Made by a program: the position numbers and the translations under genes. A DNA stretch of 64,000 bases from Nitrospira moscoviensis (lineage in GTDB: Bacteria; Nitrospirota; Nitrospiria; Nitrospirales; Nitrospiraceae), in contig NZ_CP011801.1 in NCBI RefSeq assembly GCF_001273775.1, positions 3,016,001 through 3,080,000 of the forward strand, written 5' to 3'. Positions 35,239-64,000 of the stretch are shown piece after piece; the first letter of the stretch is position 1; every line of letters starts with the position of its first letter. Below the pieces are notes generated by a model that saw nothing but the letters and a program-made list of their open reading frames with translations, was not told the DNA's origin and ran no database searches.

Positions 35239-35673
35239 TCACACATCCACCACCACCTGCGCCGTCCAGCGGCCGGCGTGCTGCGTGACCTCATACAGAT
35301 GCTTGGTCACGCCTTTGACATCCGCTCGCAACGCCTGTTTCGCCGGATCGACCGGTTCGCCGTGCACCATCGCCGTGAGCCGCCACCGATCGCCGGATTG
35401 AACGAGGTGCAGATCGACTTTGCTGAAGACCACGCCGGCCGCGTCCTTATAGTAGACCAAATCGGACAGCCAATCGAACAGCAGCGCGGCGGGATCCTGG
35501 TCTTCGCGTTCGACTTTCTGCTCCCACGCCGTTCCAACAGTGGCGGGATCCGCCATCGCGTCAATCAACGCGCCGGTCGCCGCGACAAACACGTCCTGCA
35601 GCGAATCACCCGTCGCCTCAAAGGCCAGATCCGCCACCGCCACATCATCGAGAAATCGATAGGAGAACGCCAT
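35239..35673 (-). CDS. Archease (RtcB activator)
   Basis: 144 residues from ATG 35673. Archease features: an N-terminal YRFLDDVAVADLAFEATG (typical start is Y-x-x-x-x-H-T/D-A-D), a central LLFDWLSDLVYYKDAAG helix, and the C-terminal VKGVTKHLYEVTQHAGRWTAQVVVDV with the conserved K-x-x-T-x-H. The usual His-Thr-Ala-Asp start is DVAVAD here, with Asp and Val in place of His and Thr. Archease promotes RtcB guanylylation. Its place directly upstream of rtcB supports the assignment. Confidence 0.88.
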   Translation of the reverse strand: MAFSYRFLDDVAVADLAFEATGDSLQDVFVAATGALIDAMADPATVGTAWEQKVEREDQDPAALLFDWLSDLVYYKDAAGVVFSKVDLHLVQSGDRWRLTAMVHGEPVDPAKQALRADVKGVTKHLYEVTQHAGRWTAQVVVDV

Positions 35674-35734
35674 GGAGGTCCGCCGCGACCAGTGGAAGGG
35701 ATGGAGGGAAGAAGCGGATGGCGCAATCCGCTCG

Positions 35735-36886
35735 CTACCCGAGCTCGAAGATCTTCGGGAAGTCGGTGAGGTTCCGGCAGCCGTCCGCAGTGACGAGCAC
35801 CATGTCTTCGATGCGCACGGCGCCGAGGCCCGGATAATAGAGGCCGGGTTCGACGGTGACGACATGGCCTTCCTGGAGCAGGGAGCCGGTGCGGCTGATA
35901 CGCGGCGCTTCGTGGATGTCCAATCCGACGCCGTGGCCGGTGCCGTGAAAGTAGCCCTGCATCCGGCCGTTCACGAGGCCGGTCTTGTAGCCGGCCTTCT
36001 CGAACCGCTCGCAGATGCCTTGGTGGATCTTCATCCCGTCGGCGCCGTCCTTGATCTTGCCGATCGCCTCTTCCTGCGCGTCCTTCACCGTCTGATAGAG
36101 CCGCTTGAGCTCGGGGCTCGCGGTGCCGCGGATCACCGTGCGGGACATGTCGGCGAAGTACCGGCTCGCGGCGGAGCGCGGGAACACGTCGAAGATGATG
36201 CTGCGGTCGGCCGGCAAAGGCCCCGTGCCTTCGTTGTGCGGATCGCAGGCCTGCTCGCCTCCCGCCACGATCGTGTGCTGAGCCACGCAGTCCCGCTCCA
36301 TCAGCTTGACGTTGATCAGCTTTTTGATCCGCTCGGAAGTCAGCACGTCGCCATCCAGCCACAGCGCGTGATCGCGGATCTCCGCCCGGCGCAGCGCGTC
36401 GTGCGCGGCCGCAACCGCCTCTTCCGTCGCCCGTTGCGAGGCTTCGATCAGGCGCACTTCTTCGGCCGTCTTTACGACGCGCCGCTCGTAAAACGGATCG
36501 CGCTTGGGCTTCAGGCTGTAGCCCAATTCCTGCAGCCGCGTCGCATGGATGAACGGAAAATTGGCCGGCACCGACAACTGTCTGATTTTCGCCTCTTTCA
36601 GGACCACGTTGACAATATCGACGGTGTTCGGCTCCTTGACGCCCTGCTTTTTCGCCCGCTGTTCCACCTCGGAATACGACAAGACGCGATCGACGCTCGC
36701 CTGCGTCCTGGCGCGATCCATTTCCAAATCGCTCATCACCAACAGCCGCTCGCCTTTGATCTCCATATAGATGAAGGGATCGGGCGCGATGAATTTGGTG
36801 GCGTAGTAGAGATTCGAATCGTGTTCGCTCGCGGCGATGAACAGCGTGGCGATTTCAGGTTGCTGGTGAGAGGCGGCGCGCTTCAT
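35735..36886 (-). CDS. M24 family metallopeptidase (Xaa-Pro aminopeptidase-like)
   Basis: 383 residues with an N-terminal creatinase-like domain and a C-terminal pita-bread domain. Metal ligands are recognisable as FDVFPR (Asp), YFADMSRT (Asp), GTGHGVGLDIHE (His), TVEPG (Glu) and RIEDMV (Glu). It should remove N-terminal residues before proline or cleave X-Pro dipeptides in the cytoplasm. The stop is 61 bases from the archease start; the two could be one transcript from the promoter upstream of this gene. Confidence 0.88.
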   Translation of the reverse strand: MKRAASHQQPEIATLFIAASEHDSNLYYATKFIAPDPFIYMEIKGERLLVMSDLEMDRARTQASVDRVLSYSEVEQRAKKQGVKEPNTVDIVNVVLKEAKIRQLSVPANFPFIHATRLQELGYSLKPKRDPFYERRVVKTAEEVRLIEASQRATEEAVAAAHDALRRAEIRDHALWLDGDVLTSERIKKLINVKLMERDCVAQHTIVAGGEQACDPHNEGTGPLPADRSIIFDVFPRSAASRYFADMSRTVIRGTASPELKRLYQTVKDAQEEAIGKIKDGADGMKIHQGICERFEKAGYKTGLVNGRMQGYFHGTGHGVGLDIHEAPRISRTGSLLQEGHVVTVEPGLYYPGLGAVRIEDMVLVTADGCRNLTDFPKIFELG

Positions 36887-36933
36887 GACAATACAATTTT
36901 GAATTGTAAATTTTTAATTTCCTCGGTGCGCCC

Positions 36934-36963
36934 ACAGTACCATCGGCGTCGGAGATCGGTCAA
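36934..36963 (-). promoter_or_regulatory. Candidate sigma-70 promoter of the peptidase-archease-rtcB set
   Basis: On the minus strand TTGACC and TACTGT are separated by 18 bases, followed by an AT-rich leader of about 50 bases to the peptidase ATG. Confidence 0.5.
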
Positions 36964-36988
36964 TCCTTCGGCGACTCCCGCCGGCGCG

Positions 36989-39900
36989 TCACGGCGTCGC
37001 CGGCGCCGGCATCTGGAGGCTTTCCGGCACGTCGGACTTTTCTCCGTCCGGCGTCATCAAATCGAACGGCAACGTGAGCGTATTCTTCAACACATCGACC
37101 GCCAACTGGGCGAGCCCCGAGAGGCCGGTTGCGAACGACTTCATCGGCAGATAGGAGACCTCCGGGTCCTCCACCGCCCCCTTGACCGAGAACATCGCGG
37201 TGGCCAACCCCTTCCGATCGCCCGCGAAAATCCGGCCGAACAACGGAATGGTTTTCAAAAACTGCGAGTAGGACCCGAAGGGACTCACCGCCACGACCGC
37301 GTCGAGCTGGTCCGTCGGCAAATCGTAGTTGCCGGCGGCGGTGATCTTGAGGATGGGGCTGTCGATGATGAAGTTTTCCGTCTGGAACAGACCGTTGTGC
37401 ACGACCACGGTGCCGACGATCTTGTCATACGGCAACCCTTCCTTTTCCAGGTCCACTTTGCCCTGCAGCACGGCCGGCAGGTTCAAAAGACTGATGATCT
37501 TCCACACGGCGCGCTCTTTGGCTTTCAGGATGCGGCCGTTTTCCAGGAGCACTTCCGCCCGCCCGTTCAACGTCGGGTACACGCCGTGGGGATTCCGTCC
37601 ATGGCCCCGCATGGACCCACTGATCCGCATCTGGCCGGAGATGCCCTGGATCGACGTGTTGGTCAGCCTGAGCAAATCCTGCACTTGCAACCCGGTCGCC
37701 CGGACGGAGAATTCGATATCCGCCGGCTCCTTGCGCGGCAGCTGCACCACGATGCGGCCGGCCAGCTGCCCGTGCGTGGAGTTGCCCGCGATGCGGTCGA
37801 CGTCGAGCACGCCGTCCTGAATGTTCACGCGCGCGGAGAGACCGCCGAACTTCAGATGCTTGTAATGGCCGCGCGTCACCGACGCCAGCATCGTGACCTG
37901 GCTCGTAGCCGCCAGGGTTTCCAAAAACTCCCGCATGGGCGAGCGCTCGCCTTTGGGAATGAGCAGATCGATGTCGAGCTGGTTCGATTCGATTTTGCCG
38001 GTAATGACGGGCTTGGTCGTCCAGTTTCGGATCGCCGCTTCGAGCGCCACGTCGCTGTCCTGCAGGCGGAACGACAGGCGCTTCACTTCGGCGCCGTTGC
38101 GGACGAGCTTCACGCGCGCGTAGAGATCCTGCACATGCCCGTCCAGGCCCTTCGCGAGCATCAGGCCGTTGGTCAACGCCACCCATCCCGTGATGCGCCA
38201 GGCCTTCCAATCGGTGTCTTTGCCTTTGACGTCGAGCGACACTTCCAAGTTGCCCGCTTCGAACCCGCCCTTGGAAATCCACTCGGGCAAACCGGAGAGC
38301 GACAAGGTGCCCGTCGCGAGCGACGCGTCGATGCTGAACCGCCGGCCGACGTGCAACGTGCCTTTCACCGGAATGCGGACCGAGGGCAGGATCAATTCCA
38401 CCCGGTTCACGGTGGCGCTGTCGGCCTTGGCCAACTCGCCCTCGAACTCGATCGTGGCCGGCGCGCCGACGGGTTTTTCGACGAGCCCGGGCCAGGCCGC
38501 TTTCGCCTCATCCAGAACCAGCACCCCTTTCACATGCGGCGTCGCCGTCGGCCCGGTCAAGAGCACCGCCGCGCTCAACAATCCTTCGAACATGCCGGGC
38601 GGGATGGCGGCAGCGGGCACAAGGCGGGACACCTGCGCCGCATCGCCTCGTGTCCGGACGACAAAGTCCTGAAACGTCCCGGCCTGGCCGCCCGTCATAG
38701 TCCCTTCCACCTGGACCGCCGTGTCGCCGAGATGGCCGGTCACATGGTCGAACTGGGTCGCACCGTCGGCGAGGACGAACCGTCCCTGCATGCCGGTCAG
38801 GCGCTCCGGCAGCCCCGCATGCGTAAAGCTCACATAGCGGGCCGTGACCTCTCCGCCGGCGAACGTAATGCCGCCCGGCTGGTTCAACGGCCCCACGAGG
38901 CGGAACGTCGGCTGCGCCATGCCTTCGACATCGCGGATGCCGGCGAAGAACGCCGACAGGCGCTCGGCCTTCACCGTCTTGGCCAAAAATTGCACGAGGT
39001 TCGACGCGGCCATGTTGCCGCTGATTTCCAATTCAAGCCAGGGACCCGCTTCGAGGAAGGACACCGTCGCCTTGCCGTCCGTCATCTGGATCGCCCCGTA
39101 CGACCCCGTGATGCCGAACACCCGGACACGGCCGGTTTCCACCTGCACGAGCGCCGCCACGTCTTTCGCCGGCACCCGCTCCTGGCCGAGCAACGCCTGC
39201 CCGTCCTGAATCCGGAATTCGCCGGTCATGGACAGTTGCGGCCCGGCCGCGGCGGTTCCGGTGATCGTCGCATTGACCACCTGGACCTTGCCGTCGATCT
39301 GATGGTCGGCCAGCACGGCCGGGATCTGCGGGTGAATCCATTCGGCCGGGATCGCGGTCAACAGCTGCGGCAGGCCCACCGGCGAGCTGCTGAAGGTCAC
39401 GGCAAAGGTCGGCTGCGGCGTGAGCAGCCCCGCCAGATTGGCGCCCCCCGTGAGCGTCATCTCGTTGAGCCGCGCCGTCATGTCGGACAACACCATGTCG
39501 TAGCCGGCCACGCCGGGTATCACGCGCACGACGCTCTGGACGTTGACGACGCCGTGCAGATGCTCCGGCACCGGCCGGGGACCGAGAAAATCCGCCGCCT
39601 CCCGCAGTTGCAGGTCGGCGGCCTCGACGCGGCCCTCGAACTGAAACACGGAGGACGGCCCAGTCCCCTCTTCGGCGCTGAGCGACAGCGGCTGCTCGGA
39701 CTTGCGCACCACGCCGCTGAGCGACACGGCGGACGCTCCCTGCTCGCCCGGATGGGCGGCCGACACGTGAAGCTCGGCCAGCCCGCGATCGGCGCGGATG
39801 AGGAGCCCCGCTTCGACGCGGTCAAACGTGACGGAGCGCACGCCGTCCGGCCGGGCCGCGTCGACGATCGTCACGGCGCCGTTGACGATCGTCGCCTGGC

Positions 39901-40381
39901 GGATCATGAAGACGCGGGTCATCATCTCCATCGTGCGGCGGTCGGTGGCGTCCCGATCGCTCACGCCATCGAGCACATTCCAGTGGCCGGATTCGCTGCG
40001 CCGCAAGGTCAACACCGGTTGCTCGATCGTCAATCGCTTGCCGACCACTTGCTTCTTGAACAAGGGAATCAGCCGCAGCACGAGATCGACCCGCTTGGCG
40101 GACAGCAGCGCCTCGTCCGACTCGCGGTCATGAATCACCACGTCGGAGAGCTCCACCCGAACGCGCGGGAACAGCACGACTTTGACGCGGTGCACGTCGA
40201 TCTTGCGCCCGAGACTCTGCTCGAGCTGCTGCAGGACGAAATCTTTGAGATAGTCTTCTCCGGTGAACGTACCCGAAAGGAGCAGGAACGTAGCGGCGAG
40301 CACGACGGCGGCGAGAACGACGACAAGTCCGAGCCTGAAACGGGACACTCCACCCCCTCGGTACGTAGAATCCTGCGGCAT
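36989..40381 (-). CDS. Large AsmA-like envelope protein
   Basis: 1130 residues. One N-terminal helix (LGLVVVLAAVVLAATFLLLSG) anchors a very long periplasmic beta-rich region. LKDFVLQQLEQSLGRKIDVHRVKVVLFPRVRVELSDVVI (shown here in part) is the AsmA-type opening, and the C-terminal third (GISGQMRISGSMRGHG, LNGRAEVLLENGRILKA, DYDLPTDQLDAVVAVSPFG-like) matches the AsmA-like C-terminal domain with YhdP/TamB relatives. Such proteins form hydrophobic grooves that carry phospholipids between membranes. Start ATG 40381; an internal GTG twelve codons on has a better ribosome site. The opposite strand is open for more than 1500 codons, a codon-bias artefact. Confidence 0.82.
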   Translation of the reverse strand: MPQDSTYRGGGVSRFRLGLVVVLAAVVLAATFLLLSGTFTGEDYLKDFVLQQLEQSLGRKIDVHRVKVVLFPRVRVELSDVVIHDRESDEALLSAKRVDLVLRLIPLFKKQVVGKRLTIEQPVLTLRRSESGHWNVLDGVSDRDATDRRTMEMMTRVFMIRQATIVNGAVTIVDAARPDGVRSVTFDRVEAGLLIRADRGLAELHVSAAHPGEQGASAVSLSGVVRKSEQPLSLSAEEGTGPSSVFQFEGRVEAADLQLREAADFLGPRPVPEHLHGVVNVQSVVRVIPGVAGYDMVLSDMTARLNEMTLTGGANLAGLLTPQPTFAVTFSSSPVGLPQLLTAIPAEWIHPQIPAVLADHQIDGKVQVVNATITGTAAAGPQLSMTGEFRIQDGQALLGQERVPAKDVAALVQVETGRVRVFGITGSYGAIQMTDGKATVSFLEAGPWLELEISGNMAASNLVQFLAKTVKAERLSAFFAGIRDVEGMAQPTFRLVGPLNQPGGITFAGGEVTARYVSFTHAGLPERLTGMQGRFVLADGATQFDHVTGHLGDTAVQVEGTMTGGQAGTFQDFVVRTRGDAAQVSRLVPAAAIPPGMFEGLLSAAVLLTGPTATPHVKGVLVLDEAKAAWPGLVEKPVGAPATIEFEGELAKADSATVNRVELILPSVRIPVKGTLHVGRRFSIDASLATGTLSLSGLPEWISKGGFEAGNLEVSLDVKGKDTDWKAWRITGWVALTNGLMLAKGLDGHVQDLYARVKLVRNGAEVKRLSFRLQDSDVALEAAIRNWTTKPVITGKIESNQLDIDLLIPKGERSPMREFLETLAATSQVTMLASVTRGHYKHLKFGGLSARVNIQDGVLDVDRIAGNSTHGQLAGRIVVQLPRKEPADIEFSVRATGLQVQDLLRLTNTSIQGISGQMRISGSMRGHGRNPHGVYPTLNGRAEVLLENGRILKAKERAVWKIISLLNLPAVLQGKVDLEKEGLPYDKIVGTVVVHNGLFQTENFIIDSPILKITAAGNYDLPTDQLDAVVAVSPFGSYSQFLKTIPLFGRIFAGDRKGLATAMFSVKGAVEDPEVSYLPMKSFATGLSGLAQLAVDVLKNTLTLPFDLMTPDGEKSDVPESLQMPAPATP

Positions 40382-40583
40382 CTTACCGGATCGACCCGGT
40401 GAAATCCATCAAGCCTGCGTCTTTTAAGAGGAATTCCACAGCAAATTCGGCCGAGCCGGCGCCGCGACGACTGGTGCGGGGACCGCCGACCCGCTATACT
40501 CGCCGCGCTGAAACGGTTCACCGGTTGGATGGTTTGTTTGGTTCGTAACAAACCCCTGACCCGCCGAATAAGCCGCTACTCGC

Positions 40584-44408: not shown

Positions 44409-47400
44409 ATGACTCGACCGACGACCGAACGATTCACCGATACGCAGCGGATGGAGCTGCGTTCGTACGTTCAGTTGGCCGGCGAAGTCATCGCCCAATA
44501 CTGGCCGATGCGGACCTTCATCCATCACAACCCGCTGCATGGGTTGGAATCGCTGCCCTTCGAGCAGGCGGTGCAGCACGGACGGCAACTCTTCGGCGGG
44601 CGGGGCTATCTGCCCAATGAGGAGTACCGGCGGCACGTGGCCGGCGGGCGCATCGCCGAGGACGATGTGCGGGCCGCGCTCGAGCCCCTGGCGCAGGACA
44701 AGTCCGTCGTGTTCGGCGGCCGGCGGCTCAGCCATCTCGACCTCCTCGCCGCCTCGATGCTCTACGGCGTGGCCGAGGATGTCCCAGCGGCATCGATAGC
44801 CGAGGCGGATAGGGCGGCGGCCGACCGGATCGTCTCATGGTTGGAATCCGCCGTGGTGCCGGGGCCATCCGGCGCGGGCATGCCATCGGCCTCCGTGTCG
44901 GGCCTCCTGCCCGCTCGTGAGCCGCTCGGCGTCTGGTGCGATCGCACGTGCGGAACCGCCGTCGTCGAGACGATCAATCGCGAGATGGTGAAGTGGTGCA
45001 GCGCGTTTCTCGATGAGGGCGAAGCCGGCTGGTCCATGCCGGGGCGGGAGCACACGTTTTACCGGTCCTGGAAGTCGCTCGCGCAGCACGATCTCACCCT
45101 GGGGTTGCTCGGCATCCGCGACGCCGCCGCGCGTCTGCGATCGTTGCCGGATCGCCCGGAGGACGCGCTGCTGGAACACCTGACCGCCATGCGCGTCCCC
45201 AAGGGAGCCTGGGAGCCGTACCTCTCGCTCCACCTCGCCGCGCTGCCCGGCTGGACCGGCTACATCAAGTGGCGGTCGCATCAGACGGGCTATCCCTGGC
45301 AGGAGGAGTTTCCCATCGATGTCGTCAAATATCTGGCCGTGCGTCTGTTTTACGAACGGGAATTGGCGGACGCGGCTTGCCGCGCCCACCTGGCTCTCCC
45401 GGCGCAAGACGATCTGATCCAAGGCTACATGGATGAGTACCCCCACGCCTGCCGGTTGCGACAGGCCTGGGTCGCGGGACTGCTTCCGGCAGGAATGAGA
45501 AAAGAAGTCCGGCTGCTGATGAGGACGAAGACGAGGTACGATCATCGCGCATGGGAAGAGCTGGGACGGCGCTACCAGGCGGCCCATCGCGAGGAGCTGT
45601 CGCGGCGGCAGAGGGAGACGGCGGCGCGCGCACTGGTGCGCCTCGCCCGCGCGCTGGGTCTCGACGAGGGGGCGATCGAATCGACCAGCCCCTCGGACCT
45701 CCGCACGCTGCTCGACTGGCTCGCCGCCTTTCCGCCTCACGATCACGGCCCTGTCTGGCTGAACGCGTTTGAAACCAGCCATCGAAGGCGGGTGCTGGCC
45801 GATTTGACCGCGAGCCTCGCCGCCGCCGACGAGGCGGCCGACGTCCACGACTCCTCGTCGAGGCCGCTCGCGCAGGTGGTCTTCTGCATCGACGTCCGCT
45901 CGGAAGTCTTCCGCCGCCATCTCGAACACCTGGGCGGCTACGAGACGTTGGGGCTCGCCGGCTTCTTCGGCGTGCCGTTGGACTATCAGCCCTTCAGCGC
46001 CTCGCACGCCGTCGCCCACTGCCCGGTGCTGCTGAAACCCAAGAATCAGGTGCGGGAAGTCCCGCGCAGCTATCACGGCGTGCTGGCGGAGCGCCACAAA
46101 ACCGCGGCCCAGGTGAACCAGGCGGCCAGGGACCTGCTGCATGACTTGAAGGAAAACGTCGTGACGCCGTATGTGATGGTGGAGGCGCTCGGCTGGTGCT
46201 TCGGCCTGCCTCTCTTTTTCAGGACGCTGGTCCCCCGCTGGTACGAGGCGATCAGACGCTGGTTCGGCCGCGCCGCCCTGCCGTCCATCGCGACCACGCT
46301 GACGGTGGAGAAGCTCGCCCGCGAAGAGGCCGAAGAAATGGTGGCGACGGAACAGCAGGCCGTCATTCGGCAAGTCGTGCGCGACCGGTTCGGCTTGAGC
46401 GGCGCGGCGCTGTCGTCCACGCTCCTGGACAAGATCCGCAAGAACGCCGTCGGCAACGCCGAAGGCCTCAACGGAGAAGTGGCGAAGGCGCTGGGCCTCA
46501 CGCCGGAGGCGGAAGCGGCGTTCTACGAAGACCTGCGCGAGCGCTACCGCATCAGCCCGCGCGGCATTTCGACCCGCCTGGACCGCCTGACGCACACCGG
46601 CTTTTCGGTCGCCGAGCAGGCGTATTTCGTCGAAGCGGCGCTGCGGCTGATGGGCCTCACGTCGAACTTCGCCCGCATCGTGCTGTTCTGCGCCCACGGC
46701 AGCACGTCCCAGAACAATCCCTACGAGTCGGCGCTCGACTGCGGCGCCTGCGGCGGCAACCACGGGCTGCCGAACGCCAGAGCCATTGCGGCCATGGCGA
46801 ATAAGCTCACCGTCCGGGAGATCCTGAACCAGCGCGGGGTGAGGATTCCCCACGACACGCAGTTCCTCGCCGCCGAACATGACACGACGACGGATACCGT
46901 CCGCATCGTCGACCTGGAGGACGTGCCCGCGACGCATCGGAAGGACCTGCAGCGCCTGCTGGCCGATCTGGACGAAGCGGGCCGGCACGCGGCCTATGAA
47001 CGGGCCGGTACCCTGCCGCAGGCCGCGCCGCCCGAGCCGCGCGCCGCCCGGCGCGCCGCGGCACGGCGCAGCCAGGATTGGGCCGAAGTGCGCCCGGAAT
47101 GGGGCTTGTCCAAAAACAGCCTGATCGTCATCGGGCGGCGGACGTTGACGCAGCGGGTGAACTTGCAAGGCCGCTCCTTTCTCCATTCGTACGACCATCA
47201 ACAGGACGGCTCCGGCAAGTTGCTGGAAACGATCATGACCGCGCCGCTCGTCGTCGCCCAGTGGATCAACATGGAGCATTATTTTTCGACGGTCGACAAC
47301 GAGATCTACGGCAGCGGCAGCAAGGTCTATCACAATGTGGTGGGCCGCGTCGGGGTGATGACCGGCGTGTGGAGCGACCTGCGGATCGGCCTGCCGGCGC

Positions 47401-47711
47401 AGACGGTCTTGAACGGGTCGGCGCCCTACCATGAGCCGATGCGGTTGCTCGCCGTGATCGAGGCGCCGCGCGAGCGGATCCAGGGCGTGATCGAGCGGCA
47501 TCCCCTGCTCGATCAACTGTTCAACCGGGGATGGGTGACGCTGATCGCGCTCGATCCGCGGGACAAACACTTCTATCGTCATGAACGGGGCGGAGGATGG
47601 ACACGAGAGGCACGGGCGCGAGGAGGATTGAACCATGATGGGGTTGACGCTGCATCCGATGAAGGAAATCAAGATTGTCGTGCAGGGCGATCAATTGAAG
47701 TTTGTCACTGA
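44409..47711 (+). CDS. dabA: Inorganic carbon transporter subunit DabA (DUF2309)
   Basis: 1100 residues. DabA is a cytoplasmic, membrane-attached protein with a beta-carbonic-anhydrase-like zinc site. The expected residues are present: Cys493 and Asp495 in VVFCIDVRSEV, His763 in FCAHGSTSQNNPYES and Cys778 in ALDCGACGGNHG. The His-Cys spacing (15) is the canonical one. The opening MRTFIHHNPLHGLESLPFE is the DUF2309 start. The protein is larger than the Halothiobacillus prototype (about 830 residues), with extra sequence between the two zinc-ligand pairs. Its last 77 bases overlap the P-II-like gene. Confidence 0.92.
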   Translation: MTRPTTERFTDTQRMELRSYVQLAGEVIAQYWPMRTFIHHNPLHGLESLPFEQAVQHGRQLFGGRGYLPNEEYRRHVAGGRIAEDDVRAALEPLAQDKSVVFGGRRLSHLDLLAASMLYGVAEDVPAASIAEADRAAADRIVSWLESAVVPGPSGAGMPSASVSGLLPAREPLGVWCDRTCGTAVVETINREMVKWCSAFLDEGEAGWSMPGREHTFYRSWKSLAQHDLTLGLLGIRDAAARLRSLPDRPEDALLEHLTAMRVPKGAWEPYLSLHLAALPGWTGYIKWRSHQTGYPWQEEFPIDVVKYLAVRLFYERELADAACRAHLALPAQDDLIQGYMDEYPHACRLRQAWVAGLLPAGMRKEVRLLMRTKTRYDHRAWEELGRRYQAAHREELSRRQRETAARALVRLARALGLDEGAIESTSPSDLRTLLDWLAAFPPHDHGPVWLNAFETSHRRRVLADLTASLAAADEAADVHDSSSRPLAQVVFCIDVRSEVFRRHLEHLGGYETLGLAGFFGVPLDYQPFSASHAVAHCPVLLKPKNQVREVPRSYHGVLAERHKTAAQVNQAARDLLHDLKENVVTPYVMVEALGWCFGLPLFFRTLVPRWYEAIRRWFGRAALPSIATTLTVEKLAREEAEEMVATEQQAVIRQVVRDRFGLSGAALSSTLLDKIRKNAVGNAEGLNGEVAKALGLTPEAEAAFYEDLRERYRISPRGISTRLDRLTHTGFSVAEQAYFVEAALRLMGLTSNFARIVLFCAHGSTSQNNPYESALDCGACGGNHGLPNARAIAAMANKLTVREILNQRGVRIPHDTQFLAAEHDTTTDTVRIVDLEDVPATHRKDLQRLLADLDEAGRHAAYERAGTLPQAAPPEPRAARRAAARRSQDWAEVRPEWGLSKNSLIVIGRRTLTQRVNLQGRSFLHSYDHQQDGSGKLLETIMTAPLVVAQWINMEHYFSTVDNEIYGSGSKVYHNVVGRVGVMTGVWSDLRIGLPAQTVLNGSAPYHEPMRLLAVIEAPRERIQGVIERHPLLDQLFNRGWVTLIALDPRDKHFYRHERGGGWTREARARGGLNHDGVDAASDEGNQDCRAGRSIEVCH

Positions 47712-51501: not shown

Positions 51502-51861
51502 TCAATATTCGCAATGCAATTTCCTGGCGGCGGTTCTTAACGACTGATCGAACGTCCACAGTGAGACCCGTTCGAGCACCGCCGAAGCCAGCAGATGCAC
51601 ATCGATCCACCCCAAACCCTGCCCATAGAGTTTATGAGCCTCTATAAACGTGAGCAGCTCTTCATGGTCGATCGTGGGCGCAGCGGGCAGCATCGCGAGC
51701 GCCCCCAGCACTTGCGATCGCTGCCGTAAGTTCCCGCAAGCCAGTTCACCGATAACAAGCGGGTGACAGACGACCTGGTCATCGTCCAACAGCCGGCGAA
51801 GGGAAGGAGAGTCGACGCGGAAGTGATCGATCCATACCGACGTATCCACAAGAGTCGGCAT
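51502..51861 (-). CDS. vapC: VapC-type PIN ribonuclease toxin
   Basis: 119 residues. PIN acidic residues: LVDTSVWIDHFR (first Asp), HPLVIGELACG (Glu), GWIDVHLLASA and LWTFDQSL (last two Asp). Length fits a VapC. It cuts specific RNAs when freed from its antitoxin. The VapB gene lies upstream on the same strand, separated by about 260 bases of repeat element instead of the usual few-base overlap. Confidence 0.87.
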   Translation of the reverse strand: MPTLVDTSVWIDHFRVDSPSLRRLLDDDQVVCHPLVIGELACGNLRQRSQVLGALAMLPAAPTIDHEELLTFIEAHKLYGQGLGWIDVHLLASAVLERVSLWTFDQSLRTAARKLHCEY

Positions 51862-51863
51862 AC

Positions 51864-52126
51864 CTAGCCCGCATTATTCATGACGGTTCGTCGCGAAATC
51901 GCGGAGCCGCGTCGCGAGGTCCGCGGCTCGACGAATAAGTCGAGCCATGCTTGCGGACGCCGGCGAGTTGGTGAGCCGGCCGTGTCTTGGCGCGCGGAGC
52001 CCTGAGGACCCGAGGCGTACTCGTGCAGTACGTCGAGGGCCCGAAAGGCGAGCCCGCCGGCCGAAGGCTCGTCGCAGCAGCGGATCGGCGATTGCAGCAG
52101 AAGCGCTCGTGAATAATGCGGGCTAG
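51864..52126. repeat. CTAG-ended inverted-repeat element between vapB and vapC
   Basis: Left end CTAGCCCGCATTATTCATGA, right end TCGTGAATAATGCGGGCTAG: 19 of 20 bases are complementary. The 263-bp interior has no gene. The CTAG on the right forms the TAG stop of vapB; the left end lies two bases from the vapC ATG. Flanking CTAG copies look like a 4-bp target duplication of the sort made by IS5-group transposases. Confidence 0.7.
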
Positions 52127-52314
52127 GCAGAGCGACGCCGGTGGATGTCTTTAAGACGAGGTTCGCTGCCGCCCAGCCGGGCGAGCCGTTTGGCAGCTTC
52201 ACGTGAAATGAGGGCCTCAAGCCCCAGATGCACCAGCAGCGTCTTTTCTTGGACTCCCGTGAGCTTGATGGCCCGCTTGATCAGGTCATCATCGATGTTG
52301 AGCGTCGTGCGCAT
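52123..52314 (-). CDS. vapB: VapB-type antitoxin
   Basis: 63 residues, MRTTLNIDDDLIKRAIKLTG, the usual ribbon-helix-helix start of the VapB type-II group (RTTL-xIDDxL). ATG 52320 (MHM) is an alternative. No clear ribosome site. Its TAG stop is contributed by the repeat element that separates it from vapC, so the natural C-terminus may have been altered (ends KDIHRRRSA). Confidence 0.83.
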   Translation of the reverse strand: MRTTLNIDDDLIKRAIKLTGVQEKTLLVHLGLEALISREAAKRLARLGGSEPRLKDIHRRRSA

Positions 52315-52402: not shown

Positions 52403-54058
52403 TCACCGCTGCTGCTTGCCCGCCACGGCCTCCTGAATCGCCCCGTAAAGTTGCTCCACGGCGGCTTCCTTGGTCATCAATATGGACGCGCCGGCCTTCA
52501 GCATGGCGTGCTGATTGTCGTTCCCCGCGTTGACGGACAACCCGATCACGATCGTCTCCGGCCACCGCGCCGCGATCTGCGTCGTTGCGTCGATGCCATT
52601 CATGCGCGGCATATTGACGTCCATCACCACGATCCGCGGACGAAGCTCCCCCGCAAGCTTCACCCCTTCCGCCCCGTCCCCCGCTTCCCCGACGACCTCG
52701 ATGTCCGCATAGCCGTCCAGAATCGCGCGCAAGCCCTGTCGGACCATGGCGTGGTCGTCGACCAGCAAGACGCGAACTTTCGCGTCTTGGAGCTTTGAGC
52801 CAGAAAGCGTTGAGCGTTGAGGTCCAGCGTTTAGACTTCCGGAGTGTCTTACTTCGTTCTCAACCTCAATGCCCAATGCTTTCCCACTCAATGCTTCACT
52901 GCCGCCGAGCGGCAGCGTCAGCGTCGCCGTGGTCCCCTTCCCCCGCGCCGATTCGATTTCAAACGACCCGCCCAGCGCTTTCATCCGTTCCCGGATACTG
53001 TAGAGGCCGAATTTTGAGGAGAGACCACCCGTAGGTGTTGCAGCGGCGGCAGCAGCAGCGGCAGCAAGATCGAAACCCGCCCCTTCGTCGCGGACCTTGA
53101 TCCGCAACTCGCCGGCGTCATGGCTCATGGACACCGTCGCTTCGCCGGTGCCGGCATGTTTCCAGGAGTTGAGCAGGAGCTCGCGGACCGATTGGAACAG
53201 CAGCACCGTCTGGTCTTCGGGCAGCGTCAACCCGTTGTCCTCCGGCACCTGCACCGCCACCGTCACATCGTGTTTCTTCATGGATTCGCCCAGCCATTTC
53301 AAGCCGGCGGCGAGGCCATGGTCGCGCAAGACGGGTGGGCTCAACTCCGCCACCAGAGTGCGCGTGTAGGTGAGCGCGTCGGACAGCACGTCGTCCACTT
53401 GCTTCATGATCTCCACACAGGCCGGCAGCGGAAAGGCCAGACGTTTGCCTTGCCCGAGCTTCAGCTTGCCCAGCACCAGCATCTGTTGCAGATGGTCGTG
53501 CAGCTCCGTCGCGAGCCGACGCCGCTCCCGCTGCTCGGCCACAGTGAGCTGGGACGCCATTTGACGGACTTGTTCACGCTCACGGATGAGCTCCTCTGTA
53601 CGCTGCAGAAGTTCGGTCTGTGAGAGTTGGAGCTGCTCGAACGCCTCTTGGCGTTGAGCCAAGGCGGCACCCAGATTTGCATTCAGCCTTTCCAGCTCGG
53701 ACGGACTGCGCAGCGCCATCGCCTTGGGCAGGAGCGGCACCAGCAGCAGTCCCGTGGACAACGACAGTGTCGCCGTCGCCGCCTTGACCGCACCTTCGGT
53801 CCAATAATCCGGATGCCACACGGTCCAGGCCCCCAGCAGATGCGTCGTGCCGCAGGCAAAGATGAAGAGGCCGAACAACACGAACATCCAGCGGAACGGC
53901 ACATCGCTGCGTTTGTAGAGCAAGTAAAAGAGGCTGACAGAAATAATGTAGTACGCAGCCATGATGACGACATCCGATCCGACGTTGAGCCATAGCACAC
54001 CGGGCTGCCACAAAAAACATTGTCCGTGCGGCATGAAGGTATCCTGCAACTCGGTCAT
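52403..54058 (-). CDS. Ethylene-receptor-type hybrid histidine kinase (EBD-HisKA_3-HATPase-REC)
   Basis: 551 residues from ATG 54058 (GGAGACGCGCC upstream). Residues 25-115 are three helices matching plant ETR1: GSDVVIMAAYYIISVSLFYL, then RWMFVLFGLFIFACGTTHL and a third helix. The ETR1 residues needed for copper and ethylene (Asp25, Tyr32, Ile62, Cys65, His69) correspond to Asp29, Tyr36, Ile66, Cys69 and His73 with one constant offset. A coiled coil, HisKA_3 (LATELHDHLQQMLVLGKL) and an ATPase domain with an odd nine-alanine run follow, then a receiver (VVMDVNMPRMNG). The receiver is of NarL type but has no HTH after it. Ligand could be ethylene or another Cu(I)-bound gas. Confidence 0.85.
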   Translation of the reverse strand: MTELQDTFMPHGQCFLWQPGVLWLNVGSDVVIMAAYYIISVSLFYLLYKRSDVPFRWMFVLFGLFIFACGTTHLLGAWTVWHPDYWTEGAVKAATATLSLSTGLLLVPLLPKAMALRSPSELERLNANLGAALAQRQEAFEQLQLSQTELLQRTEELIREREQVRQMASQLTVAEQRERRRLATELHDHLQQMLVLGKLKLGQGKRLAFPLPACVEIMKQVDDVLSDALTYTRTLVAELSPPVLRDHGLAAGLKWLGESMKKHDVTVAVQVPEDNGLTLPEDQTVLLFQSVRELLLNSWKHAGTGEATVSMSHDAGELRIKVRDEGAGFDLAAAAAAAAATPTGGLSSKFGLYSIRERMKALGGSFEIESARGKGTTATLTLPLGGSEALSGKALGIEVENEVRHSGSLNAGPQRSTLSGSKLQDAKVRVLLVDDHAMVRQGLRAILDGYADIEVVGEAGDGAEGVKLAGELRPRIVVMDVNMPRMNGIDATTQIAARWPETIVIGLSVNAGNDNQHAMLKAGASILMTKEAAVEQLYGAIQEAVAGKQQR

Positions 54059-54380: not shown

Positions 54381-54779
54381 TCACGTCGCCATCGGCTTGT
54401 GAGAATGGTCGAAGGTCCCGAGTACGGTGCTCATAGCATGGAGGAGGTCCCGCTTCTCGAACGGTTTTCGAAGAATCTGGTGGGCACCGAGCAGTTCTGC
54501 CGCGTGAGCGATCTCAATCATTTGGGATTGTCCGCCTCCGGTCATGGCGATGATCTTGGTCTCCGGACACGACCGCTTCAACTCCATGAGAATCTCGATC
54601 CCGTCTTTATTCGGCATGAAGATGTCGGTGATGACGACATCTGGCCGGTGCTTGTGGATGAGCGCAAGACCGGCCCGACCGTCCGCGGCTTCCTCGATGC
54701 TGAAGCCTTCTCGGCTCAGAATCGCGACGATCGTCGAACGGATCAGCCGCTCATCATCTATGACAAGAATCCGTGGCAT
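54381..54779 (-). CDS. Receiver-only response regulator
   Basis: 132 residues from ATG 54779 (GGGAGG seven bases upstream). A single receiver domain: ILVIDDERLIR (acidic pocket), VVITDIFMPNKDG (phospho-acceptor), IAMTGGG and QILRKPFEK (conserved Lys). No output domain. It is CheY/sporulation-like in size and may act by protein contact with a kinase or relay. It belongs to a minus-strand group of receiver genes that continues to 59501. Confidence 0.87.
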   Translation of the reverse strand: MPRILVIDDERLIRSTIVAILSREGFSIEEAADGRAGLALIHKHRPDVVITDIFMPNKDGIEILMELKRSCPETKIIAMTGGGQSQMIEIAHAAELLGAHQILRKPFEKRDLLHAMSTVLGTFDHSHKPMAT

Positions 54780-54870
54780 GGGATACCTCCCAACCGGTGT
54801 GCTGTACGACAAGCTTTCCCTCTGGCCCCGCGCCGATTACTTTCGGTTTGGACAGCGATCGGCGACTGTT

Positions 54871-55299
54871 CTATCGGGGCACCCGTGAGACCATGGTCCA
54901 ATAGAGCTCGAAATCCTTCACCACTTTGGCGAATTGGTCCAGGCTCATAGGCTTTCGGATGTACGAGCAGGCCCCGCCGGCGTAGGACCGGACGATGTCG
55001 TCTTCGCGGTCGCTCGTCGTGAGCATCACGACGGGGAGCGATTGAAGTTGCGGATCCGCCTTCATGGCGTCCAGCACTTCAAACCCGTTTTTCTTGGGCA
55101 GGTTGATGTCCAACAGGACCAGCCCGGGCCGTCTGGTCTGCCGATAAGGTCCTTCTTGTCGCAAGTACGCCAAGGCTTCCTCGCCGTCCCGCACCTTGCT
55201 GATCACGTTCATCAACCTGGCGTCCGCGAAGGCTTCTTCGATGAGCACGATGTCGTCTTCATTGTCCTCCACCAACAGCAGCTCCACCGGTTCCGTCAT
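54871..55299 (-). CDS. Receiver-only response regulator, Rcp1-like
   Basis: 142 residues. The start VELLLVEDNEDDIVLIEEAF, LVLLDINLPKKNGFEVL and TSDREDDIVRSYAGGACSYIRKP are typical of the Rcp1 group that partners phytochrome-type kinases. The relative at 57353 is close in sequence. No output domain. Its likely partner is the PAS kinase at 57792 or another kinase of the cluster. Confidence 0.88.
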   Translation of the reverse strand: MTEPVELLLVEDNEDDIVLIEEAFADARLMNVISKVRDGEEALAYLRQEGPYRQTRRPGLVLLDINLPKKNGFEVLDAMKADPQLQSLPVVMLTTSDREDDIVRSYAGGACSYIRKPMSLDQFAKVVKDFELYWTMVSRVPR

Positions 55300-55337
55300 T
55301 GTCGCGGCCTCCCGTGCTTGTCAGAGTGAACTGCCCG

Positions 55338-55736
55338 TCACGCACGACGACCGGACAGGGGCTGATTCGGCTCAGAGGAGGGCAGGACCTTCTTCAGGGC
55401 CGCCCCCAACTCGTGCAGCGAGAACCCTTTCGCAAGAAAATCGGTCACGCCGAGTGCACGGGCTCGAGCCTCCCGCTCCTCCGTGCCGGCCCCGGTGAGC
55501 ATGATGACCGGAGCCAGCGGATCAATCGCACGAATCTCTTTCAGCACGGCCAAGCCGTCCATCTCCGGCATCTCAAAATCGAGGATCGTCGCCTGGGGCC
55601 GTTCCCGCCGGAACAGGTCAATCCCTTGTTGCCCATGATTCGCCGTCAGCACATGGTGCCCTTTGCGCGCCAGCAGCGTGGCCAGCAGGCCCCGAATTTT
55701 TGCGTCGTCGTCCACCGCCAGAATGGTCGCCATCAT
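55338..55736 (-). CDS. Receiver-only response regulator
   Basis: 132 residues from ATG 55736, with AGGAGGAAG just upstream. Receiver pattern: ILAVDDDAKIRGLL, ATILDFEMPEMDG, VIMLTGAGT, and TDFLAKGFSLHEL, where the usual KP is KG. No output domain. It lies 29 bases from the hybrid kinase gene on the same strand, so the two are probably co-transcribed. Confidence 0.87.
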   Translation of the reverse strand: MMATILAVDDDAKIRGLLATLLARKGHHVLTANHGQQGIDLFRRERPQATILDFEMPEMDGLAVLKEIRAIDPLAPVIMLTGAGTEEREARARALGVTDFLAKGFSLHELGAALKKVLPSSEPNQPLSGRRA

Positions 55737-55765: not shown

Positions 55766-57343
55766 CTAGGCCGCGCGGCCAGCGAGATTCGGGTGCGGAG
55801 CCGCCAGTATTTCCCGAACTTTGCGACCCAACGTATCGGGTGTAAACGGTTTTTGCAGAAACGCGGGGCCCGGCGCCTGGACGGCGCCGGGGGCGAACGC
55901 CTTGTCCGTATATCCGGACATATACAGAACCCGCAGGCCTCGACGGATTGAGCAGGCGCGTTGTGCAAGCTCGGGCCCGCTCATCCCGGGCATGATCGTG
56001 TCCGTCAACAGCAGATGGAGGGGCCGGGGGTCCTCCTCCACAATGCGCAGGGCGTCCGAGACGTTCTTCGGGGCGAGTACGGCATAGCCTTGTCGCTCGA
56101 GAATCGCCTGTGCGAGCGCCCGCACCATTTCCTCATCTTCCACAAGGAGAATGGTTTCAGCCCCGCGGAGTGACGCCGTGGGAGCCGAAAGCGGCGCCGG
56201 CTGCTCGGCCGCCCCTTCGAACCGCGGCAAGTAAATCTTGAAGGTGGTCCCCTTGCCCGGCTCACTCAGCACGACAATACTCCCCCCGCTCTGTTTAACG
56301 ATCCCATGGACGGTCGCCAAACCCAAGCCGGTCCCTCGCCCGGGACCTTTGGTGGTGAAAAAGGGCTCGAAGATTCGCGCCTGCGTCTCGCCATCCATGC
56401 CGCATCCCGTATCGCTGACCGCCAGCATCACGTACGACCCCGGCTCGAGGGACAGGTCGTTGGAGGTCACGGCGCCGCTCAGCTCCACGTTCCTGGTTTC
56501 AATGGTTAGTTCGCCGCCGCCCGGCATGGCGTCCCGCGCGTTGACCGCCAAGTTCATGATGATCTGCTCCATCTGTCCCGGGTCGACCTTGACGCGTCCC
56601 AGCGTCGGGTCGGGGCAGAGGATCAACGCAATGTCTTCGCCGATCAGCCGGCGCAGCAGCTTGGTCATATTGGAGGCGACCTCATTCAAGTCCAGCACCT
56701 TCGGCTCCAGGAGCTGCCGCCGGCTGAACGCGAGCAATTGGCGAGTCAGCGAGGCGGCCCGATGCCCGGCCTCCTTGATCTGATCGAGGCCGTTTCGCAC
56801 AAAGGGATCGGAAAACCCGATATCGCCCAGCAGCATGTCGCTGTAACTGTTGATGACGGTCAGGAGATTGTTGAAGTCGTGCGCGATGCCGCCGGCAAGC
56901 TGCCCGATGCCTTCCATCTTCTGCGATTGGCGCAGCCGCGCTTCGCTGTCCCGCAGGGCTCGTTCCGCCTGTTTGCGTTCGACCGCGTAGCGCACGGCGC
57001 GCGTGAGCAGATGACTGTCCAGCCGCCCTTTGACCAAATAGTCCTGCGCGCCCCCGCGGACCGCCTGGCTCGCCAACCCTTCGTCATCCAGCCCCGTGAG
57101 CACGACGATCGGCACGTCTTGCGCGCGACTATGCAGTGTCTCGAACGTCGCCAGCCCATGACTGTCCGGCAGGGACAGGTCCAGCAACACCAAGTCATGC
57201 CGGCCTTGGGCCAACTGCGTCAGCCCCCCGCTCAGGCGGTCGGCCCATTCCAGTTGGATGCCGGCGTCTTCCTTCTCCCTCAACAGTTCTCGGATCAGAC
57301 AGGCGTCGTCTTCGTTGTCTTCAATGAGCAGTACATGCATCAT
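55766..57343 (-). CDS. Hybrid histidine kinase (REC-HisKA-HATPase-REC)
   Basis: 525 residues. An N-terminal receiver (VLLIEDNEDDACLI, LVLLDLSLPDSHG, DYLVKGRL), then HisKA (GGIAHDFNNLLTVINSYSDM) and an ATPase domain (NARDAMPGGG, DTGCGMDGE, GTGLGLATV), and a C-terminal receiver (LLVEDEEMVRALA, LLTDTIMPGMSG, FLQKPFT). No membrane helix. It can both receive and donate phosphate, as expected for an internal step of a phosphorelay with the neighbouring receivers. Confidence 0.88.
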   Translation of the reverse strand: MMHVLLIEDNEDDACLIRELLREKEDAGIQLEWADRLSGGLTQLAQGRHDLVLLDLSLPDSHGLATFETLHSRAQDVPIVVLTGLDDEGLASQAVRGGAQDYLVKGRLDSHLLTRAVRYAVERKQAERALRDSEARLRQSQKMEGIGQLAGGIAHDFNNLLTVINSYSDMLLGDIGFSDPFVRNGLDQIKEAGHRAASLTRQLLAFSRRQLLEPKVLDLNEVASNMTKLLRRLIGEDIALILCPDPTLGRVKVDPGQMEQIIMNLAVNARDAMPGGGELTIETRNVELSGAVTSNDLSLEPGSYVMLAVSDTGCGMDGETQARIFEPFFTTKGPGRGTGLGLATVHGIVKQSGGSIVVLSEPGKGTTFKIYLPRFEGAAEQPAPLSAPTASLRGAETILLVEDEEMVRALAQAILERQGYAVLAPKNVSDALRIVEEDPRPLHLLLTDTIMPGMSGPELAQRACSIRRGLRVLYMSGYTDKAFAPGAVQAPGPAFLQKPFTPDTLGRKVREILAAPHPNLAGRAA

Positions 57344-61029: not shown

Positions 61030-64000
61030 TCAGGTCCCATTGAGCGTTTGATGAATCGCCCGATACAGATGCTCGACCGCCGCTTCCTTCGTGAGCAATG
61101 TGGCGGCGCCGGCCTGGCGCATGGCGCCGTCGTTCTCCGGGCCGGCGTTGACGGAGAGGCCGATCACCACCGTATCGGGCGAGTCCCTTTTGATCCGCGC
61201 GGTCGCCTCGATGCCGTTCATCCGTGGCATGTTGATGTCCATCACGACTACGCGAGGCCGCAGTTCGCCGACGAGCGCGACTGCCGCCGCCCCGTCCGGC
61301 GCTTCGCCGACGACCTCGATGTCCGCATAGCCCTCCAGAATCGCCCGCAAGCCCTGCCGTACCATGGCGTGATCGTCGACCAGCAAGACGCGAACTTTCG
61401 CGTCTTGGAGCTTTGAGCCAGAAAGCGTTGAGCGTTGAGGTCCAGCGTTTAGACTTCCGGAGTGTCTTACTTCGTTCTCAAGCTCAATGCCCAATGCTTT
61501 TCCACTCAATGCTTCACTGCCGCCGAGCGGCAGCACCAGCGTCGCCGTGGTTCCCTGCCCCGGTGACGATTGAATGTCAAACGACCCGCCCAGCGCTTTC
61601 ATCCGCTCGCGGATGCTGAAGAGCCCGAATTTGGAGGAGAGGCCGCCGGTAGGTGTTGCAGCAGCAGCAGCAGCAGCAGCAGCAAGATCGAAGCCCGCGC
61701 CTTCGTCCCGCACCTCGATCCGCACCATGTTGGAGTCCTGCTCCATAAGCACCCAGGCGCGCCCCGTGCCGGCATGTTTGGACGAATTGATTAGCAGCTC
61801 GCGCACGGACTGGAAGAGCAAGATGGCTTGGTCCTCCGGAATGACGCCATGGCTCGCCTCCGGAACCGTCACCGTCACCGTCATCTCATACTTCTTCATG
61901 TACTCGGCCAACCACGTCAAGCCGGACGCCAGCCCCTGCTCGCGCAGGCCCGGCGGGCTCAGCTCGGCGACGAGCGTGCGGGTGTACTTGAGCGCCTCGG
62001 AAAGCACTTCGTCGGTCTCCTTCATCACCTTCGACGCGGCCGGCGTGGTGTCGGCGAAGCGCTTGTGCACACCGAGCTTCAACCGGCCCAGCACCAGCAT
62101 CTGCTGCAGATGGTCGTGCAACTCCGCGGCGAGTCGCTTGCGCTCCCGCTGCTCGGCCAAATTGAGCTCGGTGGCGAGCATGCGCAACCGGGCCTCCGAT
62201 TGCACCAACTCGGATGTCTTCTCGTTGACCGCCTGCTCCAACTCGAGGTTCCAGCTTTGCAATCTCTCTTGCGCCTCGCGCAGCGCCAGCTCAGCCTGCG
62301 CCCTGGCCGTGACGTCGGTCAGTGTCACTAACACGCGCCGCCACTCCAGATCATGCTTCGGGGCTACGAGTGAAAATTGGACGTTCAACGGCTCACCGTC
62401 CAGCCTGCGCAACAGAACCTGCCAATTAAGCAGATCGCGCCCTTCGGCGAGCGCCACCATCTCTTCAAGGAACACAGCGGCGGTTTCCGGAACGAAAATA
62501 GCCTCGAGCGAGTGGAGGAGATTTCCTTTGGAGCCCGCTTTGAACATGCGCACCGTTTCTTCGTTGACATCGCACACCCGCACAAGTTGAACCGCCCGTT
62601 GCACGACTTCCGGATGGCGCTGCAAATGCGTGCGGAGATCGGTGATTCCCTGTCGATCGATGTCGTCGAGCAGCGCTTTGACGCCCGACCAATCCTCTTC
62701 CCAAATCGAAACGCCCGCGCTCTCGAAGGTGTAGCGATACTTCGCCTCGCTCGCGCGCAACCATTCTTCCGCCCGCTTGCGCTCGGTGATGTCGAGCGAC
62801 ACGCCGCTGAACCGTACGGCCTCGCCCTGCTCGCCGTAGTAGAATCGTCCGTACAAGGAGAGCCACCGCTGTTCGCCGTTGTCGGCCCGGAAGAGGCGAT
62901 GTTCTTCGGCGAAGAAGCCTCGATCGCGTTTGGCCCGTTCCACCGCCGCCATGACGCGGGGAAGGTCCTCAGGATGCACCCGTTCTTGCCATCGCTGCAT
63001 CGAGACCGGTCCGGCCTCAGATTCATAGCCCTGCATCTGCGCATGCCGCTGATTCCATGTGGCGGCCCCCGTTCGAACATCGACGTCCCACGATCCGAGA
63101 TCGGCGCCTTCGAGCGCGAGCCGCAAGCGCGCTTCGCTTTCGCGCAGCTTCTCCTCAGCCCCCTTCCGCTCGGTAATGTCTTGCACGATCCCCACCATGC
63201 ACGCTGGTTGCCTTCGCGCCGCCGCTTGGCCGGTGCTGTGGAACCAGCGAGTCGAGCCGTCGATGCGGACTACCCGGAACTCCGCGTCGAACAGTGTGCC
63301 TTCCCGGCAGGCCGTGGCAAGCAGGTCCAGCACGCGCGGGCGATCCTCGGGATGGATGAACTCGACCCACCGGCGGGCGGCGTCGGCGGCCTGCTCCGCA
63401 GGCACGCCGAGCAGCTCGGGCAGTCCCTCACCCCAGCGATTGGCACCGGTCGCGATGTCGGTTTCCCAGGCGCCCAAATTCGCGGCGGCCATGGCTTGCC
63501 GGAGGCGCTCCTCGCTTTCGCGGAGTCTCTCCTCCGCCTGCTTGCGCTCGATGATATCGGCGGCCAGTCGCGCGAGCACATCGAGCCGCCGGCAATCCGA
63601 CTCCGGCGGCCGGTGCGGCGCCCGCCAGTGCGTCGAAATCATCCCGAGCAAACGACCGTCACGTGAGCACAGAGGCGTCGTCTGTACGCCGCGGATGCCG
63701 GTTTGCAAATACGTGGCAAGGTCGTCGGTGCCGACCATCCAGTCGCAGTCTGTCACGTCCGGGACGACGACACGTTCGCAGGCTCGCATGGCCATTCCGC
63801 ACGTACTCCTCGACACGGGTCGGACCCATTCCCAAAAGCGCGCGGCCTCGGGAGTGAAACCGCGGGAGCCCAGAAGCCGCAGCTCGCCGCGTATCGGGTC
63901 GGACATCTGCAGACTCGCGAACTCCGAACCCATCACTGCGACGGCCGCATCCAAGATGCGCTCATACAGCATGGCTACGTCGTCGGTGGCGACCAACGCG
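61030..64000 (-). CDS. Multi-PAS hybrid histidine kinase (GAF-PAS-PAS-PAS-HisKA_3-HATPase-REC), 5' end beyond window
   Basis: At least 989 residues; the frame is open to the right edge, so the start is outside. GAF (LYERILDAAVAVMGSEFASL), two PAS domains with PAC segments (each ending in DITERK), a third PAS-like region (SAGVSIWEEDWSGVKALLDD), then HisKA_3 (LAAELHDHLQQMLVLGRL), an ATPase domain containing a run of nine alanines, and a C-terminal NarL-type receiver (VVMDINMPRMNG) without HTH. The kinase-receiver half is a close paralogue of the gene at 52403. No membrane helix in the visible part. Confidence 0.88.
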   Translation of the reverse strand, partial: ALVATDDVAMLYERILDAAVAVMGSEFASLQMSDPIRGELRLLGSRGFTPEAARFWEWVRPVSRSTCGMAMRACERVVVPDVTDCDWMVGTDDLATYLQTGIRGVQTTPLCSRDGRLLGMISTHWRAPHRPPESDCRRLDVLARLAADIIERKQAEERLRESEERLRQAMAAANLGAWETDIATGANRWGEGLPELLGVPAEQAADAARRWVEFIHPEDRPRVLDLLATACREGTLFDAEFRVVRIDGSTRWFHSTGQAAARRQPACMVGIVQDITERKGAEEKLRESEARLRLALEGADLGSWDVDVRTGAATWNQRHAQMQGYESEAGPVSMQRWQERVHPEDLPRVMAAVERAKRDRGFFAEEHRLFRADNGEQRWLSLYGRFYYGEQGEAVRFSGVSLDITERKRAEEWLRASEAKYRYTFESAGVSIWEEDWSGVKALLDDIDRQGITDLRTHLQRHPEVVQRAVQLVRVCDVNEETVRMFKAGSKGNLLHSLEAIFVPETAAVFLEEMVALAEGRDLLNWQVLLRRLDGEPLNVQFSLVAPKHDLEWRRVLVTLTDVTARAQAELALREAQERLQSWNLELEQAVNEKTSELVQSEARLRMLATELNLAEQRERKRLAAELHDHLQQMLVLGRLKLGVHKRFADTTPAASKVMKETDEVLSEALKYTRTLVAELSPPGLREQGLASGLTWLAEYMKKYEMTVTVTVPEASHGVIPEDQAILLFQSVRELLINSSKHAGTGRAWVLMEQDSNMVRIEVRDEGAGFDLAAAAAAAAATPTGGLSSKFGLFSIRERMKALGGSFDIQSSPGQGTTATLVLPLGGSEALSGKALGIELENEVRHSGSLNAGPQRSTLSGSKLQDAKVRVLLVDDHAMVRQGLRAILEGYADIEVVGEAPDGAAAVALVGELRPRVVVMDINMPRMNGIEATARIKRDSPDTVVIGLSVNAGPENDGAMRQAGAATLLTKEAAVEHLYRAIHQTLNGT

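Follow-up and report, generated by a model that had tools for sequence, protein, structure and literature searches.

Locus and gene content

The window, by which we mean the whole stretch of 64,000 nucleotides from Nitrospira moscoviensis, contains on its minus strand a complete open reading frame of 551 aa, with its ATG at 54058 and its stop at 52403, exactly where a preliminary description made from the letters alone had placed it. That description proposed a profile search of the N-terminus, and Pfam PF25487 (ETR1_N) does match there, with E = 8.1e-37 and 125.8 bits against a curated cut-off of 27, far beyond chance. The features of this gene and its surroundings, all on the minus strand, are listed below with the evidence for each.

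52403-54058, minus: ethylene-binding-type hybrid histidine kinase, 551 aa, ordered ETR1_N - HisKA_3 - HATPase_c - receiver (ORF and Pfam)
53711-53998, minus: PF25487 ETR1_N domain, aa 21-116, the sole copy in the genome (Pfam)
53912-54004, minus: predicted transmembrane helix 1, aa 19-49, with Asp29, Tyr36, Ile39 and Ser40 (ETR1 Asp25, Tyr32, Ile35 and Pro36) (AlphaFold2 and alignment)
53816-53893, minus: predicted transmembrane helix 2, aa 56-81, with Ile66, Cys69 and His73 (AlphaFold2 and alignment)
53840-53854, minus: putative Cu(I) ligands, Cys69 to His73 (CGTTH) (homology to ETR1 Cys65/His69)
53717-53806, minus: predicted transmembrane helix 3, aa 85-114, with Lys92 (ETR1 Lys91) (AlphaFold2 and alignment)
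53612-53704, minus: predicted signalling helix to the kinase, aa 119-149 (AlphaFold2)
53327-53527, minus: HisKA_3 dimerisation/phosphoacceptor domain, aa 178-244, phospho-His H187 in ELHDHLQQ (Pfam and motif)
52907-53206, minus: HATPase_c catalytic domain, aa 285-384, with N, G1 and G2 boxes (Pfam and motifs)
52787-52906, minus: inter-domain linker, aa 385-424, encoded by a palindromic repeat that seven paralogous kinases also have (DNA comparison)
52436-52771, minus: NarL-type receiver, aa 430-541, with D434/D435, phospho-Asp D480, S508 and K530, followed by no DNA-binding domain (Pfam and motifs)
54381-54812, minus: stand-alone receiver, by its position a possible relay partner (domain search)
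54871-55299, minus: stand-alone receiver (domain search)
55338-55736, minus: stand-alone receiver (domain search)
55766-57343, minus: Receiver-HisKA-HATPase-receiver hybrid kinase of the same-strand two-component run (domain search)
61030-63996, minus: paralogous kinase with GAF/PAS sensors, its HisKA_3-HATPase-receiver body 71% identical, over the whole body, to that of the ethylene-type kinase; it runs past the window end

The features of a hybrid histidine kinase are all intact (H187, the N, G1 and G2 boxes, D480 and K530). The nearest relatives of the fused receiver are NarL/VraR-type regulators, and no DNA-binding (LuxR-type) domain was found C-terminal to it, the protein ending 10 residues past the receiver. 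The architecture first proposed, a HisKA_3 kinase fused to a NarL-type receiver without a DNA-binding domain, is thus borne out. Judged by its sequence, the protein is a true sensor kinase of the ethylene-receptor (ETR1_N) family, as a kind already known in hundreds of bacteria.

The three stand-alone receivers (54381-55736) lie directly upstream of the kinase gene on the same strand, across a gap of 322 bases. No ethylene-related gene was found next to the kinase. A search for ACC deaminase, which is not required for ethylene sensing, did not find it, and one for ammonia monooxygenase, which would link the host to ethylene chemistry, gave no match either here or in the control genomes. Elsewhere in the window are DabA, a probable inorganic-carbon transporter subunit (44409-47711), and a plus-strand ORF of 1576 aa (35672-40402) without a Pfam match at E 0.001, overlapped by an opposite-strand ORF of 1130 aa. 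On the other side of the kinase gene, a short element with terminal inverted repeats (CCTAGCCCGCATTATTCA...) occupies 51861-52128, between a VapB-like gene (52123-52314, minus strand, read by hand), whose stop codon it overlaps, and a PIN/VapC gene (51502-51861, minus strand). The genome contains 11 copies of the 17-bp end of this element at no more than 1 mismatch; most form facing pairs with a spacing of about 196 bp (263 bp here), a MITE-like arrangement.

Binding residues and predicted fold of the sensor domain

Wang et al. (2006) reportedly identified seven ETR1 residues, Asp25, Tyr32, Ile35, Pro36, Ile62, Cys65 and His69, a list that agrees with both of the papers cited next. PMC11819568 cites mutagenesis by which ethylene binding to ETR1 needs seven residues, and Ile35, Pro36 and Ile62 are essential besides Cys65 and His69 (PMC6586836). 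Five of these had already been recognized at Asp29, Tyr36, Ile66, Cys69 and His73 (ETR1 Asp25, Tyr32, Ile62, Cys65 and His69, offset +4), and all five are indeed present. The two that had been left out are Ile35, kept as Ile39, and Pro36, replaced by Ser40. The domain is therefore not the complete ethylene-binding domain that it was taken for: when all seven residues are asked of a functional ethylene receptor, the window protein has six, and we class it with the sensors of the ethylene-receptor family and not among the proven ethylene receptors. The constant, gapless offset of four holds as far as His73; beyond it ETR1 Lys91 corresponds to Lys92, the loop between helices 2 and 3 being three residues shorter than in ETR1, and the His-to-Lys spacing is the same as in AzoEtr1 (His79 to Lys98).

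We aligned 103 bacterial ETR1_N copies, 96 without duplicates. The equivalents of Asp25, Tyr32, Ile35, Ile62, Cys65, His69 and Lys91 are nearly invariant among the 103, and all are in the window protein; invariant positions beyond the Cys/His pair include HG-C--W ahead of helix 1. Among the 96, all seven binding residues are found in 84 and the proline is absent from 11, ten of which have the remaining six unchanged. Of the seven positions, then, only the proline is given up by bacteria that hold on to the rest. The window protein belongs to this proline-less group that retains the other six, and in other, mostly non-cyanobacterial, members the position is Ser, Ala or Thr. Such natural replacements of Pro36, with the rest of the site kept, offer a direct test of the role of that residue. 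The eleventh proline-less copy, from G038 of the same order (L002 / L036), is a natural degenerate one without either copper ligand (Cys to Val, His to Gln) and with Asp and Tyr gone too.

For the sensor domain, AlphaFold2 run on 79 aligned domains gave helices at residues 19-49, 56-81, 85-114 and 119-149 with a mean pLDDT of 88.6, below 50 for the first 14 residues only. The first three helices are hydrophobic, and the N-terminus is predicted to form the expected three-helix membrane sensor followed by a signalling helix. Structure prediction had been proposed as a check on the early reading, and it places both Cys69 and His73 on helix 2 of three membrane helices; a separation of the two, which was to have counted against that reading, is a weak criterion because any two residues spaced i and i+4 along a single helix lie near each other. 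Searching the PDB with the sensor domain, by sequence and by fold, produced no sequence match and no convincing fold match.

Distribution of ETR1_N proteins

The statement that ethylene-binding-type kinases are known in plants and cyanobacteria proved too narrow, as other bacterial phyla carry the family and ethylene binding has been shown in Azospirillum (PMC11819568). A survey of one genome per species, scanned for two conserved motifs, confirmed at least 583 relatives. The best 80 of these are mainly cyanobacterial and also include Myxococcota, Marinobacter, Ectothiorhodospiraceae, Methylobacter, Bdellovibrio, Acidobacteriota and Verrucomicrobiota; plasmid records contribute further carriers, among them Azospirillum, Rhizobium and Novosphingobium. 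Across these sources the family occurs in Alpha- and Gammaproteobacteria, Myxococcota, Bdellovibrionota, Verrucomicrobiota, Acidobacteriota and others. A domain scan of 65 ETR1_N proteins found HATPase in 52, HisKA in 37, HisKA_2 in 10, HWE in 10 and HisKA_3 in 7, along with receivers in 16 and GGDEF/EAL in 5, in agreement with a review that describes a known family with diverse outputs (PMC7700396).

In the host phylum 16 of 396 sampled genomes score above the ETR1_N cut-off; 15 of the matches are full-length, the other is borderline. The domain is rare in the host family (5/175 genomes, three of them in the host genus), and no paper tying ethylene receptors to Nitrospira or Nitrospirota was found in the literature library searched. 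Some ETR1_N proteins of the same phylum (L003, L004, L005, L008 and L010) are about 200 aa long, lack a kinase and share a C-terminal motif, RE.RMIELK.EIN.L; these may act on kinases in trans. A search of phage records for ETR1_N relatives found none. Two contigs classed as viral (L155 and L156) encode stand-alone ETR1_N-like proteins, with CGTTH kept in L155, and the predicted viral protein A0A8E4UZR7 gave a fold match to the sensor domain.

In a tree built on few columns, which does not settle its deeper forks, the window domain clusters with copies from two members of the host family, G335 and G196, with SH-aLRT 100 and a long stem. These two nearest relatives share both Ser40 and the HisKA_3 body with the window kinase. 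The reading frame of the G196 copy is broken inside the HisKA_3 region (possibly a sequencing error), and most of the catalytic domain is gone from that of G335; with the kinase half damaged in both, the system appears dispensable in relatives. Conservation is highest in the sensor domain, which is 75-76% identical to the two sister copies against 50-64% elsewhere, has a dN/dS of about 0.10, a rough value since dS is high, and is under purifying selection. The surroundings of both sister genes are unlike the window, so synteny names no partner gene.

The kinase-receiver body and its linker

A search of the host's own genome with the kinase core found 31 places, 14 of them, including itself, at 50% identity or more. 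The nearest paralogues of the body are 78, 78, 74 and 71% identical, and the paralogues carry PAS, GAF, receiver or other modules as sensors, in contrast to the ETR1_N of the window kinase; most paralogues end in a like receiver without a DNA-binding domain. Since 14 copies share the body and differ in their sensors, ETR1_N is here one interchangeable sensor on a lineage-specific body, a shared chassis that shows fusion as a route by which such sensor domains spread. The close likeness of the bodies makes shared receivers likely as well. At 2.387-2.401 Mb of the same genome (L136), five paralogous HisKA_3 kinases with differing sensors stand in an array.

The linker between catalytic and receiver domains is an imperfect palindrome at the DNA level, with the repeat at window position 52788-52898 (36-nt arms, 78% complementary, DNA fold z = -3.8), and its DNA is 84-97% identical to the linkers of seven paralogues, eight kinases in all. 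The repeat also occurs around window position 61422-61437, and related palindromes lie between genes of the same signalling regions at 2.37-2.61 Mb, e.g. L136:1644-1727 with arms 87% complementary. Half-sites of the palindrome number 29 in the genome, versus 0 for a reversed control pattern. This pattern suggests an intergenic palindromic repeat that inserted into the linker first and multiplied along with the kinase body afterwards. The repeat is reminiscent of the palindromic elements that Rickettsia proteins contain as in-frame insertions.

Proposed mechanism and alternatives

We think it probable that the window kinase is a copper-dependent gas sensor of the inner membrane, of the ETR1_N family, in which an ETR1_N domain is joined to the shared kinase-receiver body. 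Its domain content and homology, six of the seven binding residues, the purifying selection and the paralogy of the body are shown above, along with the predicted fold; copper binding, the ligand, the direction of signalling and the output partner enter the following scheme as we infer them. By homology, a dimer of the kinase would hold Cu(I) at Cys69/His73 of helix 2, near the dimer interface. Ethylene or a similar small Cu(I) ligand would bind there and shift the packing of helices 1-3, and the signal would travel along the helix at aa 119-149 to HisKA_3, altering autophosphorylation on His187, from which phosphate would move on to Asp480 in the fused receiver. Since the kinase lacks an output domain, its effect should be exerted via other proteins, whether it relays phosphate to separate receivers or competes for it. 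Its origin would lie in the fusion of an ethylene-binding domain to a kinase-receiver body that the genome pairs with many different sensors.

Against this explanation stands Ser40, in place of a proline (Pro36) that is essential for ethylene binding to ETR1. The lack of an ethylene-related neighbour and the damaged kinase halves of both sister copies also weigh against it, and the PDB searches turned up no solved relative of the domain with which the model could be compared. A possible reading, to which we give a minor share of the probability, keeps the Cu(I) site and supposes that the natural signal is not ethylene; it would be another small Cu(I) ligand, such as CO, NO or another unsaturated gas, or else the copper or redox state itself, with the change from Pro36 to Ser marking an altered pocket. 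Cys, His, Asp, Tyr and both Ile have been kept under purifying selection with the proline replaced, and other copies that keep the same six are likewise free at that position, which suits such a reading; however, the window domain shares about half its residues with a proven ethylene binder. The same lost proline could instead belong to a vestigial receptor that no longer binds a ligand and persists as a constitutive member of an amplified kinase family, or is in the course of being lost. The frame-broken or deleted kinases of the two sister copies, and the presence of any such domain in just five of the 175 family genomes, would accord with decay, but a dN/dS of about 0.10, an identity to the sisters above that of the rest of the protein, and catalytic motifs that are all intact in the window copy make it quite improbable.

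An ordinary three-helix membrane domain with an accidental Cys/His pair has next to no probability: the match (E = 8e-37) runs across the whole domain and the invariant residues extend well beyond that pair, HG-C--W before helix 1 among them. Chance resemblance of the sensor domain is refuted by the ETR1_N profile match. Returning to the copper-dependent gas sensor, we favour the statement that the window kinase works like an ethylene receptor; that it is one is not established, and ethylene as its putative physiological ligand is plausible. If ethylene is sensed, a bacterium of a nitrifier-like group for which no plant partner is known would be responding to a gas that plants and soil microbes produce, and the case would bear on the role of ethylene receptors before plants acquired them. 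A more speculative and rather doubtful idea is that this clade of the family retuned its copper pocket, by way of Pro36 to Ser, to some other small gas or alkene, feeding many look-alike kinases on one body whose sensors converge on common receivers.

Comparison with known ethylene receptors

The window kinase is ordinary as a kind; it is unusual for the host family and in its single-residue departure, and the evolutionary history of its kinase half is of interest. Ethylene-binding-type kinases have been proven in Synechocystis and Azospirillum, and AzoEtr1 of Azospirillum brasilense binds ethylene (PMC11819568). The window domain is 49% identical to that of AzoEtr1 over 84 aa. The two proteins are alike in an N-terminal ethylene-binding domain (about 50% identical, with the same His-Lys spacing) and in a histidine kinase that adjoins a small receiver gene (PMC11819568). 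AzoEtr1 has all seven residues and a PAS domain but lacks a fused receiver, a separate small receiver being its partner, whereas the window kinase has Ser for Pro36 and a NarL-type receiver fused to a HisKA_3 kinase. SynEtr1 (Slr1212) of Synechocystis and other cyanobacterial receptors similarly carry the binding domain on a phosphorelay histidine kinase, but SynEtr1 also senses light (PMC11819568), and the sampled homologues, mainly cyanobacterial, mostly combine PAS with HisKA, unlike the window kinase. Closer in kinase type are four cyanobacterial proteins (L056, L081, L089 and L115) with ETR1_N on a HisKA_3-type kinase, by motif match; they differ in having about 285 residues after the domain, a length that would be too short for a fused receiver. 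Plant ETR1 shares the Cys/His copper site, six of the seven essential residues and the hybrid kinase with receiver, and differs in its GAF domain, its location in the endoplasmic reticulum and its established signalling through CTR1 (PMC7700396).
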